64,000 bases of DNA from Clostridia bacterium (GTDB taxonomy: Bacteria > Bacillota > Clostridia > UBA1381 > UBA9506), in NCBI GenBank assembly GCA_017416855.1, contig JAFQAZ010000032.1, forward strand, positions 1 to 64,000. Direction: 5' to 3'. How positions within the stretch are numbered: position 1 is the first letter of the stretch; every line of letters starts with the position of its first letter. Below, in pieces: positions 3,563-9,756 of the stretch. The translations under genes and the position numbers were made by a program. The notes under the pieces were generated by a model. It searched no databases. It saw nothing but the letters and a program-made list of their open reading frames with translations, and had not been told where the DNA came from.

Positions 3563-5626
3563 TTATTTAAGATATACATCCACAATAGAAACTCCACCCT
3601 GAGGCACCAACACGCGGAAAGTATGCTGATCGCCCGGATAATCCTGGGTACCGAAACTAAAACGCTTGGCATCAGAAAATTTCACCGGTAACATGGGGAA
3701 TTTACTCACAACATTTACCTTGTCAATATCGTGATTTTTTATCGTAATTGTTGCAGAAGCATAGCGCAGACGGTCATCATTAATCACATACATACGAATA
3801 CCGCCATCCGGCATTTCCATAGCCACAACAGGATTGGAAGCTTCAAAAAGATTATCGTAACTATACATAAACAGTTTTGCCAAAGCTTTTTTAAAACCTA
3901 CAGAAACCTTTTGGAAGGGAATCTGCTGATATATGGTATTGAAAATATCTTCAGCGTGGAAGGGATCTTCCAAAATCACCGTGTCATCATCTTCTGAAAC
4001 TAAGTCTAAAATTGAATTTTTATCCGCAATGTCTATATTATAAGCAAAAGCCATATTGATAAAGGGGGTATCGTGATCTTCAAAATAAATATCCGGTGTA
4101 ATACCATAGTTTTCCGGCTTAAAATCTCCCATAGCAGAAGCCGTTGCAATCACAGCACCGCCCGTGTAACTTGCCATCTGCTGTTTTTCTTCTTCTGAGA
4201 GCATGTCAAAGTTCGGCACAAACAGGTCACCGCTATTGTCTGTCACATCTTCGATTCTCACAACGGAACCGATGTTAGCCCCCGCCCAGTCCATTTCCGC
4301 CATAAACTTATGGGGGGTGTAACGACGGGTCTTCATGTATTCCGGAAGTAACGCATACTGGCCATGATCAGACCAAACCAAAGTTGGCGTGATGTACTTT
4401 TGAGGTGTTTCGCCAAAAGCAATGTCATAACGCTCTTTAAGCCACTTCCACTCATCTTCATAGATACCATCTGCCAGACAGACAATAAAGCCATCTAAAG
4501 AGCGTTTTAAGCCCTGTTTTGTCTGTCGATGGAAGGAAGACATATAATAAATATCACGCTCCAGCATATTGGGAGAATGATGGAGCATATCCCATTCTTC
4601 ACTGCCATCCTTAACACCCAGCATATGCAGTTTTTTGCCCTGATCGGTAAATACATCGGTAAGGGCACACATTGTGGCGTGTTCATAATACACCCAGGGG
4701 CGACCGACATGGCGCATACAGGATGCATTAGCCGCCGCATTGGGCATTAAATAATCAACCCCGGCATTCACAAGGCGCTTTAAATCCACACCCAGTGCAT
4801 ACATAGTCGCAAAGGGGTCTGTGCAATAGGTGCCGATAACAAATGCCTTTTTGCCAATAGCATGCAACCGGTCACAAATCTTTTTCCAGAACTGTTCCCA
4901 ACGCCAGCAATAAAACTCCACCCATTCTGCCCGGACGTTTTCCCAAATCCAGTCGCCACGCAAGTTAATATTCTCAAATGTTTCTTCTGTAAGGCTCATA
5001 ATCTCATCCGGCACCTTTATGCCCGAATACGCCACAAATTGCTCCAGCATATCATAAGAAAAGTCACCGCGGGCTCTGGTGCTGTAATGGGGACAGAAAT
5101 TATCTGTTACATGCAGACCGTCAAACCCATAATCTGAAAGGGTTTCGCAAAGTTTATCTGCAAAAAAATCTTCGTAATAAGTGCCGTCTTTAAACCGTTT
5201 CAACACATTCAATGTCTGAATGGAATCACGATAATGTACTTTAATTTCAGGGTGTTCAGTCAACCATTCTTTATGATAGTAGTCCTCCAAATCTACGCCC
5301 ATAATACCAAGATAAGACTCAATACCGCGCTTACGGAGATTATCTGCCAAAATCTTTAAATCCTTATTGGTCCACTCCTGACGGCGGCGTTCTTCATTAT
5401 AAGGGTTGGCATAATAACCGCAGTTATCCGGCGGCAACACTCTTAACTCATCAACACCATTATGATGATGCACCACATCGGGATGAAAAGCAAACACAGA
5501 AACAGCATGTGGTGTGAATTTCATTCTTTTTAACAGTTGTTTAACGCCTTTATCCCGCTTATCCTTATCAAAACCTATCAGAGGCATCCAGGCAAAAATT
5601 TCTGACTTATCAAAATATTTTGGCAT
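3563..5626 (-). CDS. Putative glycoside-hydrolase-like TIM-barrel protein
   Basis: 687 aa, no signal peptide and no membrane segment, so probably cytoplasmic. I do not recognise an exact family. The first ~430 residues look like a glycosidase-type (beta/alpha)8 barrel: regular strand-loop patterns, many aromatic and acidic residues, and loops such as GFDGLHVTDNF near residue 170 resembling barrel strand ends. The C-terminal ~250 residues look like a class-I glutamine-amidotransferase-like or beta-sandwich module of the sort found at the end of large glycosidases. It is a single gene with its own promoter, with no transporter beside it. Substrate unknown; a carbohydrate-active role is inference. 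Confidence 0.55.
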   Translation of the reverse strand: MPKYFDKSEIFAWMPLIGFDKDKRDKGVKQLLKRMKFTPHAVSVFAFHPDVVHHHNGVDELRVLPPDNCGYYANPYNEERRRQEWTNKDLKILADNLRKRGIESYLGIMGVDLEDYYHKEWLTEHPEIKVHYRDSIQTLNVLKRFKDGTYYEDFFADKLCETLSDYGFDGLHVTDNFCPHYSTRARGDFSYDMLEQFVAYSGIKVPDEIMSLTEETFENINLRGDWIWENVRAEWVEFYCWRWEQFWKKICDRLHAIGKKAFVIGTYCTDPFATMYALGVDLKRLVNAGVDYLMPNAAANASCMRHVGRPWVYYEHATMCALTDVFTDQGKKLHMLGVKDGSEEWDMLHHSPNMLERDIYYMSSFHRQTKQGLKRSLDGFIVCLADGIYEDEWKWLKERYDIAFGETPQKYITPTLVWSDHGQYALLPEYMKTRRYTPHKFMAEMDWAGANIGSVVRIEDVTDNSGDLFVPNFDMLSEEEKQQMASYTGGAVIATASAMGDFKPENYGITPDIYFEDHDTPFINMAFAYNIDIADKNSILDLVSEDDDTVILEDPFHAEDIFNTIYQQIPFQKVSVGFKKALAKLFMYSYDNLFEASNPVVAMEMPDGGIRMYVINDDRLRYASATITIKNHDIDKVNVVSKFPMLPVKFSDAKRFSFGTQDYPGDQHTFRVLVPQGGVSIVDVYLK

Positions 5627-5677: not shown

Positions 5678-5706
5678 ATTATATCACCACATAAAACCCG
5701 TGTCAA
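5678..5706 (-). promoter_or_regulatory. Sigma-A promoter of the glycosidase-like gene, -35 inside a hairpin
   Basis: On the minus strand: -35 TTGACA (5701-5706), 17-bp spacer, -10 TATAAT (5678-5683). The -35 hexamer overlaps the loop and one arm of the hairpin at 5698-5715, so terminator and promoter share bases. Confidence 0.8.
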
Positions 5707-5716
5707 CAGACACGGA
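5690..5716 (-). terminator. Likely terminator of the ASRT/M24/PTE operon
   Basis: A 7-bp perfect stem CCGTGTC / GACACGG with a 4-nt loop (5698-5715), followed on the minus strand by G and a short T-run. The T-run is weak, so termination may be partial. It may instead serve as an operator for the promoter it overlaps. Confidence 0.55.
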
Positions 5717-5792: not shown

Positions 5793-6161
5793 TTAGAATG
5801 TGTAACCTTCTACGCTGTAATATGCCATATTTGTCTGACGGACATCTAAGCGACCGAAGCAAGCGCAAATTGGAACATCGCTTTTTACCCAAACGGTGTA
5901 CTGAACGGACTCACCAAGAGTAAAATTTTTCTCTCCCATAGGCTTGTCGAGCCTTACACAAGTTGTTCTCATACCATCAAGCTCCACAAAAATACCTTCT
6001 TCGGGGTCGCGGTCTTCAAAAATGAATGAAAGCTCAATTTTGGCTTTTTCGTCATTTAAGTTTGTAAACATTAATGCTTCGTGACCTTCAAATTCGGGAT
6101 TATCCCCTTTTGGCGGAAGATATCCGTCACAGAACACCCAATTTTTCTTTCCTCTTTCCAT
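5793..6161 (-). CDS. ASRT-superfamily small-molecule-binding protein (sensory rhodopsin transducer-like)
   Basis: 122 aa. It matches the layout of the Anabaena sensory rhodopsin transducer family: GYLPP near residue 13, HEALMFTNLND near 27-37 matching the family's HE..-ILN-GDE segment, an acidic strand IFEDRDPEEG, a basic RTTCVRLD segment, then VKSDVPICACFGRLDVRQ near 93-110. The family forms a compact beta-sandwich tetramer and is thought to bind small ligands, probably sugar-like; no rhodopsin gene lies here. It is the last gene of an operon with a phosphotriesterase-family hydrolase and an M24 protein, 14 bp after the M24 stop, so it probably serves that pathway as a ligand-binding or sensing subunit. 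Family assignment is firm; role is inference. Confidence 0.8.
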   Translation of the reverse strand: MERGKKNWVFCDGYLPPKGDNPEFEGHEALMFTNLNDEKAKIELSFIFEDRDPEEGIFVELDGMRTTCVRLDKPMGEKNFTLGESVQYTVWVKSDVPICACFGRLDVRQTNMAYYSVEGYTF

Positions 6162-6175
6162 TTCGTTTGTTCCCC

Positions 6176-7369
6176 TTATTTAAAAATTTTCGGTATAGCC
6201 TTATCATTATAGGTTGTCATACGTTTTGCGCCCTTATCAGTTATAAGATAGCAATCTTCAACACGGAAAGAACCCCACTCCATCCCCTTAAAATATGCAT
6301 CAATGCAAATGGCCATATTTTCTTCAATTATGCGCTTATTTGCAACCGAAAACGTCGGTGCTTCGCACTCGAGCATACCTGTCGAGTGAAGACTTCCGTA
6401 CGGGCAGTAATCTATGTAACCATATTTTGTAAGATAATCTGTGTATGCATTTAAAACCACATCGCAAGGTGTTCCCGGAACCATTTTTTCAGATGCGTAA
6501 TTTAGTGCATCATATGCGCACATAACGGCATCCTTAATCTTTTGTGGAACTTCGCCGAGTACAAGAGGCGAGCAGATTATACCGTTGTAACCTTCATAGC
6601 ATACGCCTGCACCGATATTTATAATTTCGCTTTCGCCAATCTTTCTTAAAGTATTTCTGCACATACTGATATATGAGTTTTGAGTGCCTGTTGCCACCAT
6701 AGGCGCAAATGCCTGAACATAGCTTTCAGCCCCCAAGCTCATCATTTCAGCTTCAAACATACCTTCAATATGACGCTCTGTCATACCAACTTCAATTTTA
6801 GGAACAACGTTTTCAAACATTTTTGAAACCATTTCCCAGTTAGTCTTGAGTAGCTCAATTTCTGCAGGACTTTTTCTTATTCTCTGCTCATAATGAACAT
6901 CATCAAAGTCCACAATTTCGCAATCCGAGAACACCTTTTTAAGCTTATTCATAATAATTGCAGGGAAAATAAGTCGTCCGATAAAGCCGATTTTTTTAGC
7001 ACCGGGATGCTCAGCTTTAACCTGCATAAAGAGTTCCTCAAAGTCAAGCTGACCTTCTGTATCGTACTCAAAACCGCTAACTTCACCAATTTCAGGCAAG
7101 ATAGCAATTCTGCTGTCGGGAAGTGCGTTTTGTATTTCGCAGTAGTCAAAAGACGCCTGACCGCTACAAACTATAACCTCTCCCTCTTTTGGAATAATGA
7201 TTGCCGAGCTTTCGTTTACAGGTGCAAATCCCGAGTAGTATCTTACAATCGCAATTTCTAAAAGGTTTGAAAATCCTACTACGATATCAACGCCGTTTTC
7301 TGCCATTTTCCCGCGCAGGAAATCTACTCTTTTCTGATATTCTGCGCCCTCAATTTTTGTAAAATTCAT
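6176..7369 (-). CDS. M24-family (creatinase/prolidase fold) protein without metal ligands
   Basis: 397 aa, two-domain 'pita-bread' protein: an N-terminal creatinase domain (about 1-150) and a C-terminal catalytic domain (about 160-385). In aminopeptidase P and prolidase two aspartates of a DxG..x(n)D motif bind metal; here the same stretch reads INIGAGVCYEGYNGII, with Asn and Ile at those places. The histidine of HSTGMLECEAP and the Glu of FRVEDCYLIT remain. This resembles creatinase, which is metal-free and uses a histidine, so a C-N hydrolase on a small guanidino/amide substrate is likelier than a peptidase. Start ATG with GGGAGG upstream. It lies between the PTE-family and ASRT genes. Confidence 0.8.
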   Translation of the reverse strand: MNFTKIEGAEYQKRVDFLRGKMAENGVDIVVGFSNLLEIAIVRYYSGFAPVNESSAIIIPKEGEVIVCSGQASFDYCEIQNALPDSRIAILPEIGEVSGFEYDTEGQLDFEELFMQVKAEHPGAKKIGFIGRLIFPAIIMNKLKKVFSDCEIVDFDDVHYEQRIRKSPAEIELLKTNWEMVSKMFENVVPKIEVGMTERHIEGMFEAEMMSLGAESYVQAFAPMVATGTQNSYISMCRNTLRKIGESEIINIGAGVCYEGYNGIICSPLVLGEVPQKIKDAVMCAYDALNYASEKMVPGTPCDVVLNAYTDYLTKYGYIDYCPYGSLHSTGMLECEAPTFSVANKRIIEENMAICIDAYFKGMEWGSFRVEDCYLITDKGAKRMTTYNDKAIPKIFK

Positions 7370-7385
7370 TTCTTTATACCTCCCG

Positions 7386-8396
7386 TTATATTATGAAATT
7401 TTTAACATTTTCTGTAAGAAGTGACATATACTGATTTTCTGTTATGCCATTTTCAAGCGCCATATTTTTAACAGAATTAAGTATATGAGCGTAGCCCGTA
7501 CCGCCAAACTTTCTCCACATAGTTTTAAGGCATATATCGTTACATAAAAGGATTTGCTCTCCATACCCTTCCTCTAAAAGCCTTTTTAAAAGCTTAATTC
7601 TTTCTAAGTCATAAGCAAATCTTCTTTCTTCCGAAACATAAAACTCTTTTCCGAAATTATCAAACTCTATGTAAACTCCCCTATCCAAAAGCGCACGTAC
7701 ATAGTCAGGTCTTAATAGAACATCTACATGGTCAATACATATTTTTTCAGGCTTTGCTCCCTGCTTGGTCAATATATCAATAACCAAAAAACCATTCTCT
7801 GTATATAGGTCAGTATGAACATGAATCGCTTTTCCCGTTTCACAGCTTACAATACCCGCCGCTGTCAAAACCTTTTTTTCGTCATCCGTTACCACAGCAC
7901 TCGTTCCGATTTCTCCGATTATGCCTGCTTTTATATCCGTTTCGCCAATGCCTTCTAAAATATCTTTTCTCATTTCATCTGCAAGCTCTTCTGTTTTTGC
8001 ATCTTTAACATACGGAAAATGTGCTTTGTGGTAGTAGTGACCGCAACCTAAAATAATATTTACACCCGAGCGAAGAGATACTTCTTTTAGGGCGCTTGGG
8101 TTACGCCCTATCTCATCGAGCGTGCAGTCAATTATCGTATTTCCGCCGCTATTTTTAAAATATTCCATCTCTTTTACAGCATCATCTACACCCTCTAAAA
8201 GAGCATTGTCCAAAATAGCATAAGGGTCAGAAAAAACAAGCCCCCTGTTTGCCATACCAATTTTCTCATTAAAATAATCGGGTTCATGTCCCGTAACATC
8301 CACACAACCACGCATATCTATAAAAATATGCTCGTGCGATGACGCAACTCCAATTTCGTCTTTGCTGATTTTTCCCAATGCTGTTTCAACCAACAT
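7386..8396 (-). CDS. Phosphotriesterase-family (amidohydrolase superfamily) lactonase/hydrolase
   Basis: 336 aa from ATG 8396; the GTG at 8402 overlaps the Shine-Dalgarno GAGGTG. The binuclear metal site is visible: HEH near residue 23, GEIGTS near 165 (a Glu where many phosphotriesterases have a carbamylated Lys, as in E. coli PHP), HVHT near 195, IDHVD near 225, and Asp in CNDICLK near 285. All metal ligands are present, so it is predicted active. Family members open lactones or hydrolyse esters and amides; true phosphotriesterase activity is unlikely. It is the first enzyme gene after the AraC regulator, and its probable product flows to the creatinase-like gene 16 bp downstream. Confidence 0.85.
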   Translation of the reverse strand: MLVETALGKISKDEIGVASSHEHIFIDMRGCVDVTGHEPDYFNEKIGMANRGLVFSDPYAILDNALLEGVDDAVKEMEYFKNSGGNTIIDCTLDEIGRNPSALKEVSLRSGVNIILGCGHYYHKAHFPYVKDAKTEELADEMRKDILEGIGETDIKAGIIGEIGTSAVVTDDEKKVLTAAGIVSCETGKAIHVHTDLYTENGFLVIDILTKQGAKPEKICIDHVDVLLRPDYVRALLDRGVYIEFDNFGKEFYVSEERRFAYDLERIKLLKRLLEEGYGEQILLCNDICLKTMWRKFGGTGYAHILNSVKNMALENGITENQYMSLLTENVKNFII

Positions 8397-8403
8397 TCTC
8401 ACC

Positions 8404-9285
8404 TCAATTTTGTTCTGTATTTTTCATTATACTTTTTTTATACATTGCAGGCGACATTCCCTCGTTTTTCTTAAAAAAAGCACCAAAATACTTGATATCC
8501 GAAAAACCAAGCTCTTTAGACACCGCAGTAACTGACAAATCGGTTTCTGAAAGCAATTTTTTCGCTTCTTCAATTTTCATCCTGTTAAAATATGCAAACA
8601 AGCTCTCCCCCATCTGCTCTTTAAATATCTTGCACAAGAAAGACCTCGAATAATTAACCTTGGCACATATTTCCTCAAGCGATATTTTCCTGTTTATATT
8701 TGCCTGAAAATAATCGATTATTATGCCTGATAGTTTTGCATAAAAATCATCTTTATTTAAAAATACAACCTCAGGATTTTTCTCTTCAGAAAGCTTTCTT
8801 AAAATGCATATTATGATATACTCAAGATGCAAAATTATAGCTTGCTGACCCCCAAAATTAGCATTTTTAATCACTTCAAGCTGGTCTTTATCGTTCATAA
8901 AAAAGGTTTGTTTGTGTTCAGAAATAATTCTTAAAACATAGTCCTTTAAAACCTCATCAAGCGCATATGGAGTTTCTCCCAAAGTTTTCATTGTGTGAGA
9001 AAACGTTTCAAAGCACACAACAAAAGCCTTGCCTTTTTTATAATCGTTGCAAATATATGAGTGTGTTTTTTCAGGCGGAATAAAGAAGATTTCCCCCTCG
9101 TTCAGCGTGACAGACTTCCCCTCTAAAACGAGCATAATTTTCCCGTTTTCAACATAGCAAAGTTCCCAAAAATTATGCTGTTCTTCGTAATTTTTGTACT
9201 TTCCCCTAAAATCGAGATACTCTAAGGCCGTAAGCCCCTTTATATCTATGACATTGTGAATTTTGTGCTTGAGATAAGTTTTCAT
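8404..9285 (-). CDS. AraC-family transcriptional regulator of the PTE/M24/ASRT operon
   Basis: 293 aa. The N-terminal cupin (about 20-110) carries PPEKTHSY, the usual ligand-pocket turn. The C-terminal ~100 residues hold two helix-turn-helix motifs, including YSRSFLCKIFKEQ and the signature FSDIKYFGAFFKKNEGMSPAMYKK. It is the first gene of the operon, two bases before the hydrolase frame, so it is cotranscribed with its likely targets. A good promoter sits at 9315-9343. It probably senses the substrate of the two hydrolases. The start ATG has GGGGTAA upstream. Confidence 0.9.
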   Translation of the reverse strand: MKTYLKHKIHNVIDIKGLTALEYLDFRGKYKNYEEQHNFWELCYVENGKIMLVLEGKSVTLNEGEIFFIPPEKTHSYICNDYKKGKAFVVCFETFSHTMKTLGETPYALDEVLKDYVLRIISEHKQTFFMNDKDQLEVIKNANFGGQQAIILHLEYIIICILRKLSEEKNPEVVFLNKDDFYAKLSGIIIDYFQANINRKISLEEICAKVNYSRSFLCKIFKEQMGESLFAYFNRMKIEEAKKLLSETDLSVTAVSKELGFSDIKYFGAFFKKNEGMSPAMYKKSIMKNTEQN

Positions 9286-9314: not shown

Positions 9315-9343
9315 AGTATAAATAAAAATTTTTTTGATGTAAA
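9315..9343 (-). promoter_or_regulatory. Promoter of the AraC/PTE/M24/ASRT operon
   Basis: Minus strand: -35 TTTACA (9338-9343), 17-bp spacer that is almost pure A/T, -10 TATACT (9315-9320). The A-tract spacer may bend DNA. The region from here to 9438 is very AT-rich and holds no gene. Confidence 0.7.
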
Positions 9344-9438
9344 CCTATTATTTTCTCCTGATATACTAAAATATTCCACAAAAATATTTTTATGTAAATT
9401 TTAACACATTTTAAACTGTTTTGCATCATTTTCATAGC

Positions 9439-9565
9439 AGAGGTGAAGTTTATTCAAAGTGAAAAACATAAAAAAAGCAGGCATTCGTCACTAAAACGAA
9501 TGCCTACCTTAATCTTTTATTTTATATTAACTTGTTTTGCACGGTCTGTGCATTTTTAGACAACC
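9439..9565. repeat. Copy A of duplicated groEL-terminator block
   Basis: 127 bp nearly identical to 9631-9756; the only clear difference is one extra A in an A-run (seven versus six). It contains a full copy of the groEL terminator hairpin. Distance between copies is 192 bp. Confidence 0.95.
9470..9504 (-). terminator. Second (duplicated) terminator downstream of groEL
   Basis: Perfect 9-bp stem GGCATTCGT / ACGAATGCC (9480-9504) followed on the minus strand by a run of seven T. It backs up the terminator in copy B and isolates the AraC promoter from groEL read-through. Confidence 0.85.
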
Positions 9566-9649: not shown

Positions 9650-9756
9650 AGTGAAAAACATAAAAAAGCAGGCATTCGTCACTAAAACGAATGCCTACCT
9701 TAATCTTTTATTTTATATTAACTTGTTTTGCACGGTCTGTGCATTTTTAGACAACC
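9631..9756. repeat. Copy B of duplicated groEL-terminator block
   Basis: 126 bp, the copy next to groEL and therefore probably the original. It ends five bases before the groEL stop codon. Confidence 0.95.
9662..9695 (-). terminator. groESL operon terminator
   Basis: Perfect 9-bp stem GGCATTCGT / ACGAATGCC (9671-9695), 7-nt loop, followed on the minus strand by TGC and six T. It lies 65 bases after the groEL stop. Confidence 0.9.

Follow-up and report, generated by a model that had tools for sequence, protein, structure and literature searches.

What is the function of an operon that encodes an AraC-family regulator, a phosphotriesterase (PTE)-family hydrolase, an M24 'pita-bread' protein short of metal ligands and a protein of the ASRT family? 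We analyzed such a gene set (Table 1) in a stretch of 64,000 nucleotides, here called the window, which comprises bases 1-64000 of the 66286-base contig JAFQAZ010000032.1 from the draft genome (2.37 Mb) of a Clostridia bacterium. The gene set is not a chance grouping and recurs in dozens of genomes. Its M24 protein belongs, on sequence grounds, to a coherent metal-free subfamily with a conserved pocket, found in uncultured gut bacteria. Every fold is known, and the combination is undescribed in the open-access literature searched. The original prediction, made from the sequence of the locus, knew of no described pathway with these four parts, and we found none in the open-access full texts searched. 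No paper among them paired ASRT with creatininase or rhamnose, none named PF07100, and for PTE/creatinase gene clusters only unrelated papers were found.

Recurrence of the gene set and exchange of its metallohydrolase

Relatives were collected by scanning an alignment of the M24 protein against 84,980 species (one genome each). This gave 440 relatives, of which the best 80 loci were read. Among the 40 loci with a window-type M24 gene, 29 had an ASRT gene within 1.5 kb of it, 27 had a PTE-family gene nearby, 21 had both and 18 had all four genes. These counts vary with the distance threshold chosen, and some loci scored negative for a partner end at contig edges. The exact order AraC-PTE-M24-ASRT without an insert was found in 7/40 loci. 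In a separate ASRT-only search of the order, an M24 gene adjoined most ASRT loci. Joint conservation had been proposed as one of two tests on which the original prediction should stand or fall, the other being a profile search for the ASRT assignment. With all four genes together in 18 loci and the ASRT assignment upheld (below), it survives both. Given this recurrent linkage in relatives, the four-gene set is a conserved unit.

The closest named relatives of the operon were metagenome-assembled Clostridia, many of them from the ruminant gut (SIG and RGIG bins), and the gene set is shared by bacteria from the guts of animals other than ruminants as well. In the sister locus L052 (Oscillospiraceae bacterium SIG442) the M24 protein is 100% identical (rounded).

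The metallohydrolase partner of M24-ASRT varies by lineage and is a PTE-family protein, creatininase or MlrC. In some lineages M24-ASRT is followed by a creatininase-family protein of 244 amino acids, often with DUF4432 (a creatininase-family partner was present in 15 sampled loci), while in others MlrC (M81) precedes it. A tree of 107 M24 proteins grouped them by partner, with window-type/PTE, second PTE, creatininase and MlrC clades on long branches; built by a quick method and rooted at the midpoint, it does not settle the order of exchange. Since creatininase or MlrC replaces PTE elsewhere, M24 and ASRT are the common element and the metallohydrolase is the variable one.

Other arrangements were also seen. 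Two loci (L065 and L078) carried a PTE-M24 unit beside an MlrC-M24-ASRT unit. In five others (L079, L081, L083, L085, and L094) a PTE gene was followed by two Amidohydro_2 genes, a fucose/arabinose-isomerase-like gene and an M24 gene, usually with ASRT; of all the versions, this variant operon may say most about the substrate. A related metal-free M24 gene without ASRT was found beside Gfo/Idh-like oxidoreductases, M20-like peptidases and transporters in L091, L092, L101, and L103.

The M24, PTE-family and ASRT proteins

The M24 protein matched PF00557 with 100.3 bits and Creatinase_N (PF01321) with 33.2 bits (cut-off 22). At the five ligand positions of M24 metallopeptidases (D, D, H, E, E) it has G253, I264, His328, D357, and Glu371, and so lacks the full ligand set. 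It had been described as an M24 protein without metal ligands; this is correct for the two Asp, which are gone, and one Glu has become Asp (D357), but His328 and Glu371 are kept. Both metal Asp were lost in 107/107 sampled relatives, in which Y261, H328, E334, E336, D357, R369, and E371 never varied. Because plain decay would not preserve invariant residues, the pocket was probably re-purposed rather than decayed.

With Creatinase_N and a pita-bread domain the protein has the domain composition of creatinase, and its profile matched creatinase 1chm at 3.5e-28. It also matched the ectoine hydrolase DoeA, while the best scores in PDB were to prolidases. The position of His79 in methionine aminopeptidase (MetAP) is Ser235 in the window protein and Ser, Ala or Val in relatives. 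Creatinase also uses a catalytic-base His at the metallo-M24 position, which we take to be that of MetAP His79.

For the PTE-family hydrolase a complete binuclear amidohydrolase site had been noted. All six metal ligands (H23, H25, E164, H196, H225, and D289) are indeed present and were invariant in 60/60 homologues, giving the HxH, bridging residue, two His and Asp of a two-metal site. The bridging ligand was Glu164 in all 60, not the carboxylated Lys of phosphotriesterase proper. The nearest solved structures were 3rhg, 9efa, and 3k2g. The protein shares the TIM barrel, all six metal ligands and the Glu bridge with Pmi1525 (3rhg), E. coli PHP (1bf6), and mammalian phosphotriesterase-related protein (PTER), and it scored far below the NCBIfam cut-offs for PHP, OPH, and phospho-furanose lactonase.

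The ASRT assignment held in a hidden Markov model (HMM) search, with 90.7 bits for PF07100 against a cut-off of 25, and the protein aligned over its full length with PDB entries 1nc7 and 2ii7. In the family signature, SHEshChhN, the His and the Cys sit at what has been proposed to be the ligand cleft (De Souza et al., 2009; PMC2739507). The window protein retains the His, Glu, and Asn of this signature and has lost the Ser and Cys. It passes the family HMM, yet judged by its motif it belongs to a variant subfamily. ASRT proteins linked to M24 or PTE had GHExx[I/M/L/V], and the Cys of SHExxC was found in 0/68 of those with a readable motif. Among unlinked ASRT proteins with a readable motif it was found in 28/29, the sole exception (L086) lying about 2.5 kb from an M24 gene. 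The SHExxC-type genes mostly adjoined the L-rhamnose genes RhaA or RhaB. We did not find this split described in the main text of PMC2739507. With the Cys missing from its putative ligand site, the window protein may bind another ligand than ordinary ASRT proteins do.

ASRT proteins were proposed to bind sugars, and solo ASRT proteins to be sugar sensors acting via protein contacts; an isomerase-aldolase-kinase neighbourhood was also described (De Souza et al., 2009; PMC2739507). In the open-access literature searched we found no experimental proof of sugar binding. L-rhamnose operons of the Thermotoga maritima TM1070 type resemble the window operon in having a small stand-alone ASRT protein in a sugar-related operon. 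However, there SHExxC occurs with RhaA/RhaB, whereas here GHExx[M/I] occurs with a metal-free M24 protein and a metallohydrolase. The variant subfamily, marked by its altered ligand-site motif, offers a route to a ligand in a family for which sugar binding has been proposed since 2009: its genes are linked to those of enzymes and come under an operator and promoter, and the ligand can therefore be searched for through the inducer of the operon.

Table 1. Features of the operon and its surroundings (window coordinates).
Feature	Position	Strand	Basis or remark
araC-PTE-M24-ASRT operon	8404-9285, 7386-8396, 6176-7369, 5793-6161	minus	
Operator and promoter of the operon	9317..9375 (-10 ends at 9315)	minus	Conservation in 17 upstream regions
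AraC-family regulator, 293 aa	8404..9285	minus	Pfam: cupin sensor and HTH_18
PTE-family hydrolase, 336 aa	7386..8396	minus	PF02126, 198.4 bits; start ATG 8396 preferred
M24 'pita-bread' protein, metal-free subfamily, 397 aa	6176..7369	minus	Pfam; ligand loss in relatives
ASRT (PF07100), 122 aa	5793..6161	minus	Pfam; variant motif GHEALMFTN
Second promoter, TTGACA-17-TATAAT, extended -10	5678..5706	minus	12/12 consensus match
GH42-like glycoside-hydrolase-fold protein, 687 aa	3563..5626	minus	Predicted model; no Pfam match

Regulation and possible function of the operon

The four open reading frames lie where they were first placed and are as tightly packed as first described, and each family assignment scored above its curated Pfam cut-off. 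The gap between araC and the PTE gene is 1 bp if translation starts at GTG 8402 and 7 bp if it starts at ATG 8396, and the gaps between PTE and M24 and between M24 and ASRT are 16 and 14 bp. The ATG start is the likelier one, since a GAGGTG ribosome-binding site lies directly upstream of it. The regulator matched HTH_18 with 71.4 bits and, like AraC/XylS proteins, has a C-terminal domain with two helix-turn-helix motifs, an N-terminal cupin sensor and a direct-repeat operator near -35. The araC gene heads the operon in many homologous loci.

In the operator, half-site 1 AATATTTTAGTAT is followed 21 bp on by half-site 2 AAAATAATAGGT, and the promoter at 9343-9315 consists of the -35 TTTACA, a 17-bp spacer and the -10 TATACT. 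The sequences upstream of 17 araC homologues, for the most part diverged, carried AATATTTTGGTAT, GAAnATTTTAGGTTTACA, and TATAAT in that order. Common to them was the half-site AAnATTTT, repeated 21 bp apart with the second copy abutting -35. Spacing was near-fixed, the box-to-box distance being 29 in at least 12/17 and the -35/-10 spacer 17 in 16/17. These elements support the single shared promoter claimed for the four genes. A genome scan for the operator-promoter pattern, allowing up to 3 mismatches, matched only the copy of the operon (0 matches in window shuffles) and revealed neither a wider regulon nor a transporter. The layout is as expected for an AraC-type regulator that would activate its own operon. 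A boundary after four genes is plausible, since the gene that follows (3563-5626) is preceded by a consensus promoter of its own.

We tentatively favor, with somewhat less than even confidence, an inducible operon for the breakdown, in the cytosol, of a small molecule derived from carbohydrate, likeliest a glycoside, a sugar lactone or an acylated or amidated (perhaps 6-deoxy) sugar. AraC would bind the two direct half-sites upstream of araC and, with inducer present, activate araC-PTE-M24-ASRT. A GH42-like enzyme, expressed from its own promoter, may release the sugar part, as its predicted fold suggests. The dinuclear PTE-family enzyme would hydrolyze a lactone, ester or amide bond, and the M24 protein could use its conserved His, Glu, Asp, and Arg for a second step that needs no metal, by analogy to creatinase in the same fold. 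The ASRT protein may bind a sugar-like substrate or product, working with M24, its usual partner. The carbohydrate part is suggested by the neighbouring genes and the 2009 proposal of sugar binding by ASRT. An inducible unit for a lactone, guanidino or amide compound had been predicted; the AraC control stands, but that substrate is one option among several, the neighbourhoods point to carbohydrates, and among the neighbours we recognised none that would act on guanidines or hydantoins.

The main rival is a pathway for a creatinine-like nitrogen compound, in which PTE, creatininase or MlrC would open a lactam, hydantoin or cyclic amidine, M24 would cleave the product and ASRT would be an accessory binder. 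The creatinine pathway (creatininase and creatinase) likewise joins a metal-dependent hydrolase to a metal-free M24 fold. The profile matches to creatinase 1chm and DoeA fit this, as do the loci with creatininase, which contain a creatininase and creatinase-like pair. However, the best M24 scores were those to prolidases, the window M24 and its relatives have Ser, Ala or Val at the presumed catalytic His position, and the window has PTE and ASRT. In the neighbourhoods examined we recognised carbohydrate genes, but none for urea, guanidine, sarcosine or hydantoin. We regard such a pathway as unlikely. Marginally less probable again is a non-enzymatic ligand-sensing or chaperone-like complex of M24 and ASRT, allosteric on a metallohydrolase (PTE, creatininase or MlrC) that would be the only catalyst. 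It would agree with the proposal of solo ASRT proteins as sugar sensors (De Souza et al., 2009; PMC2739507), with the loss of the metal Asp pair and with the recurrence of M24 and ASRT while the hydrolase changes, but the strictly invariant polar set in the M24 pocket exceeds the needs of a scaffold and many PTE-M24 pairs lack ASRT.

Mouse PTER hydrolyzes N-acetyltaurine, with R204 and R233 near the substrate (PMC11374699). This precedent, and 9efa (a phosphotriesterase-related protein) being the second-best solved relative, would suit an amidase acting on N-acyl amino acids or N-acyl taurine, with the other genes handling the released amine. Such a role is improbable given the carbohydrate neighbourhood and the two arginines, which correspond to Leu199 and to a gap/Val228 in our own mapping of the mouse numbering onto 9efa; with both missing, a PTER-type N-acetyltaurine hydrolase was set aside. 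That M24 is an ordinary Xaa-Pro peptidase of peptide catabolism in an incidental cluster is very improbable indeed: its best PDB matches are prolidases, but the metal Asp pair is absent from every sampled relative and the linkage to ASRT and hydrolase is conserved across many genomes. Peptidase function was rejected on the metal-ligand loss. A defence-system reading was dropped, as there was no PADLOC match.

Several observations weigh against the carbohydrate-catabolic operon as well. M24 lacks the His that serves as catalytic base in metallo-M24 enzymes and, probably at the same position, in creatinase, and catalysis is therefore not assured. The window ASRT lacks one of the two residues proposed to contact the ligand. 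In the second PTE clade, PTE-M24 pairs often occur without ASRT (PTE in 26/30 loci, ASRT in 7/30). The operon contains no transporter, and no combination of neighbours was constant enough to name one sugar. The weakest link is the argument from carbohydrate neighbours: gut clostridia are rich in glycosidases and sugar genes, and part of the signal may therefore be background. Still more tentatively than for the carbohydrate-catabolic operon itself, we propose that the locus represents a new catabolic system, in which a core of metal-free M24 and variant ASRT (GHExx[M/I]) would recruit PTE, creatininase or MlrC, and M24 would catalyze a new reaction on carbohydrate-derived compounds.

Neighbouring genes

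Gene 3563-5626 belongs to the wider neighbourhood of the operon, beyond the four genes first noted. Homologues were found near window-type M24 in 10/40 loci, in some cases with just a few bases between them and ASRT or PTE. PDB profile searches with this family and with a 262-aa family described below gave nothing significant, and structure prediction was therefore needed for both. The AlphaFold2 model of the 687-aa protein (pLDDT 77.6, pTM 0.82) gave glycoside hydrolase family 42 (GH42) as the best Foldseek matches (E 6.8e-10, TM-score 0.52). It shares its predicted three-domain fold with the beta-galactosidase/alpha-L-arabinopyranosidase structures 4uoq and 5xb7, but is about 10-12% identical to GH42. 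The GH42 family is defined by a TIM barrel with trimerisation and beta domains and by two catalytic Glu; in the window protein the acidic D175, D340, and E343, which may include a catalytic pair, were invariant in 9 homologues.

The second promoter probably drives this gene separately and is identical in L052. Its -35 is overlapped by a perfect 18-bp inverted repeat, CCGTGTCTGTTGACACGG (5698-5715; CCGTGTC-TGTT-GACACGG), also identical in L052; the repeat resembles an operator, presumably that of a different regulator.

By raw occurrence, recurring neighbours of the relatives were GH42-like, GH18-like barrel, GH3, GH78, GH29, DUF4838, Gfo/Idh, fucose/arabinose-isomerase-like and rhamnose genes. 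In the second PTE clade, 20/30 loci encoded a 262-aa protein that has no Pfam match and whose predicted structure is a GH18-like barrel. The genome that contains the window also holds a second-clade copy, on another contig (C9), where two AraC genes and the genes for L-rhamnose isomerase (RhaA) and a class II aldolase are oriented divergently from it. A cluster without PTE, M24, and ASRT (L165, G000:C17, 8530-16023) had two adjacent 262-aa barrel genes with LacAB/RpiB isomerase, ceramidase-like and Amidohydro_1-type proteins.

Between groEL and the operon the window carries two identical 95-bp copies plus 37-bp flank (9471-9565 and 9662-9756), 191 bp apart. A strong terminator hairpin of the minus strand, AGGTAGGCATTCG...CGAATGCCTGCTT, lies in each, and together they represent a duplicated groEL terminator region.

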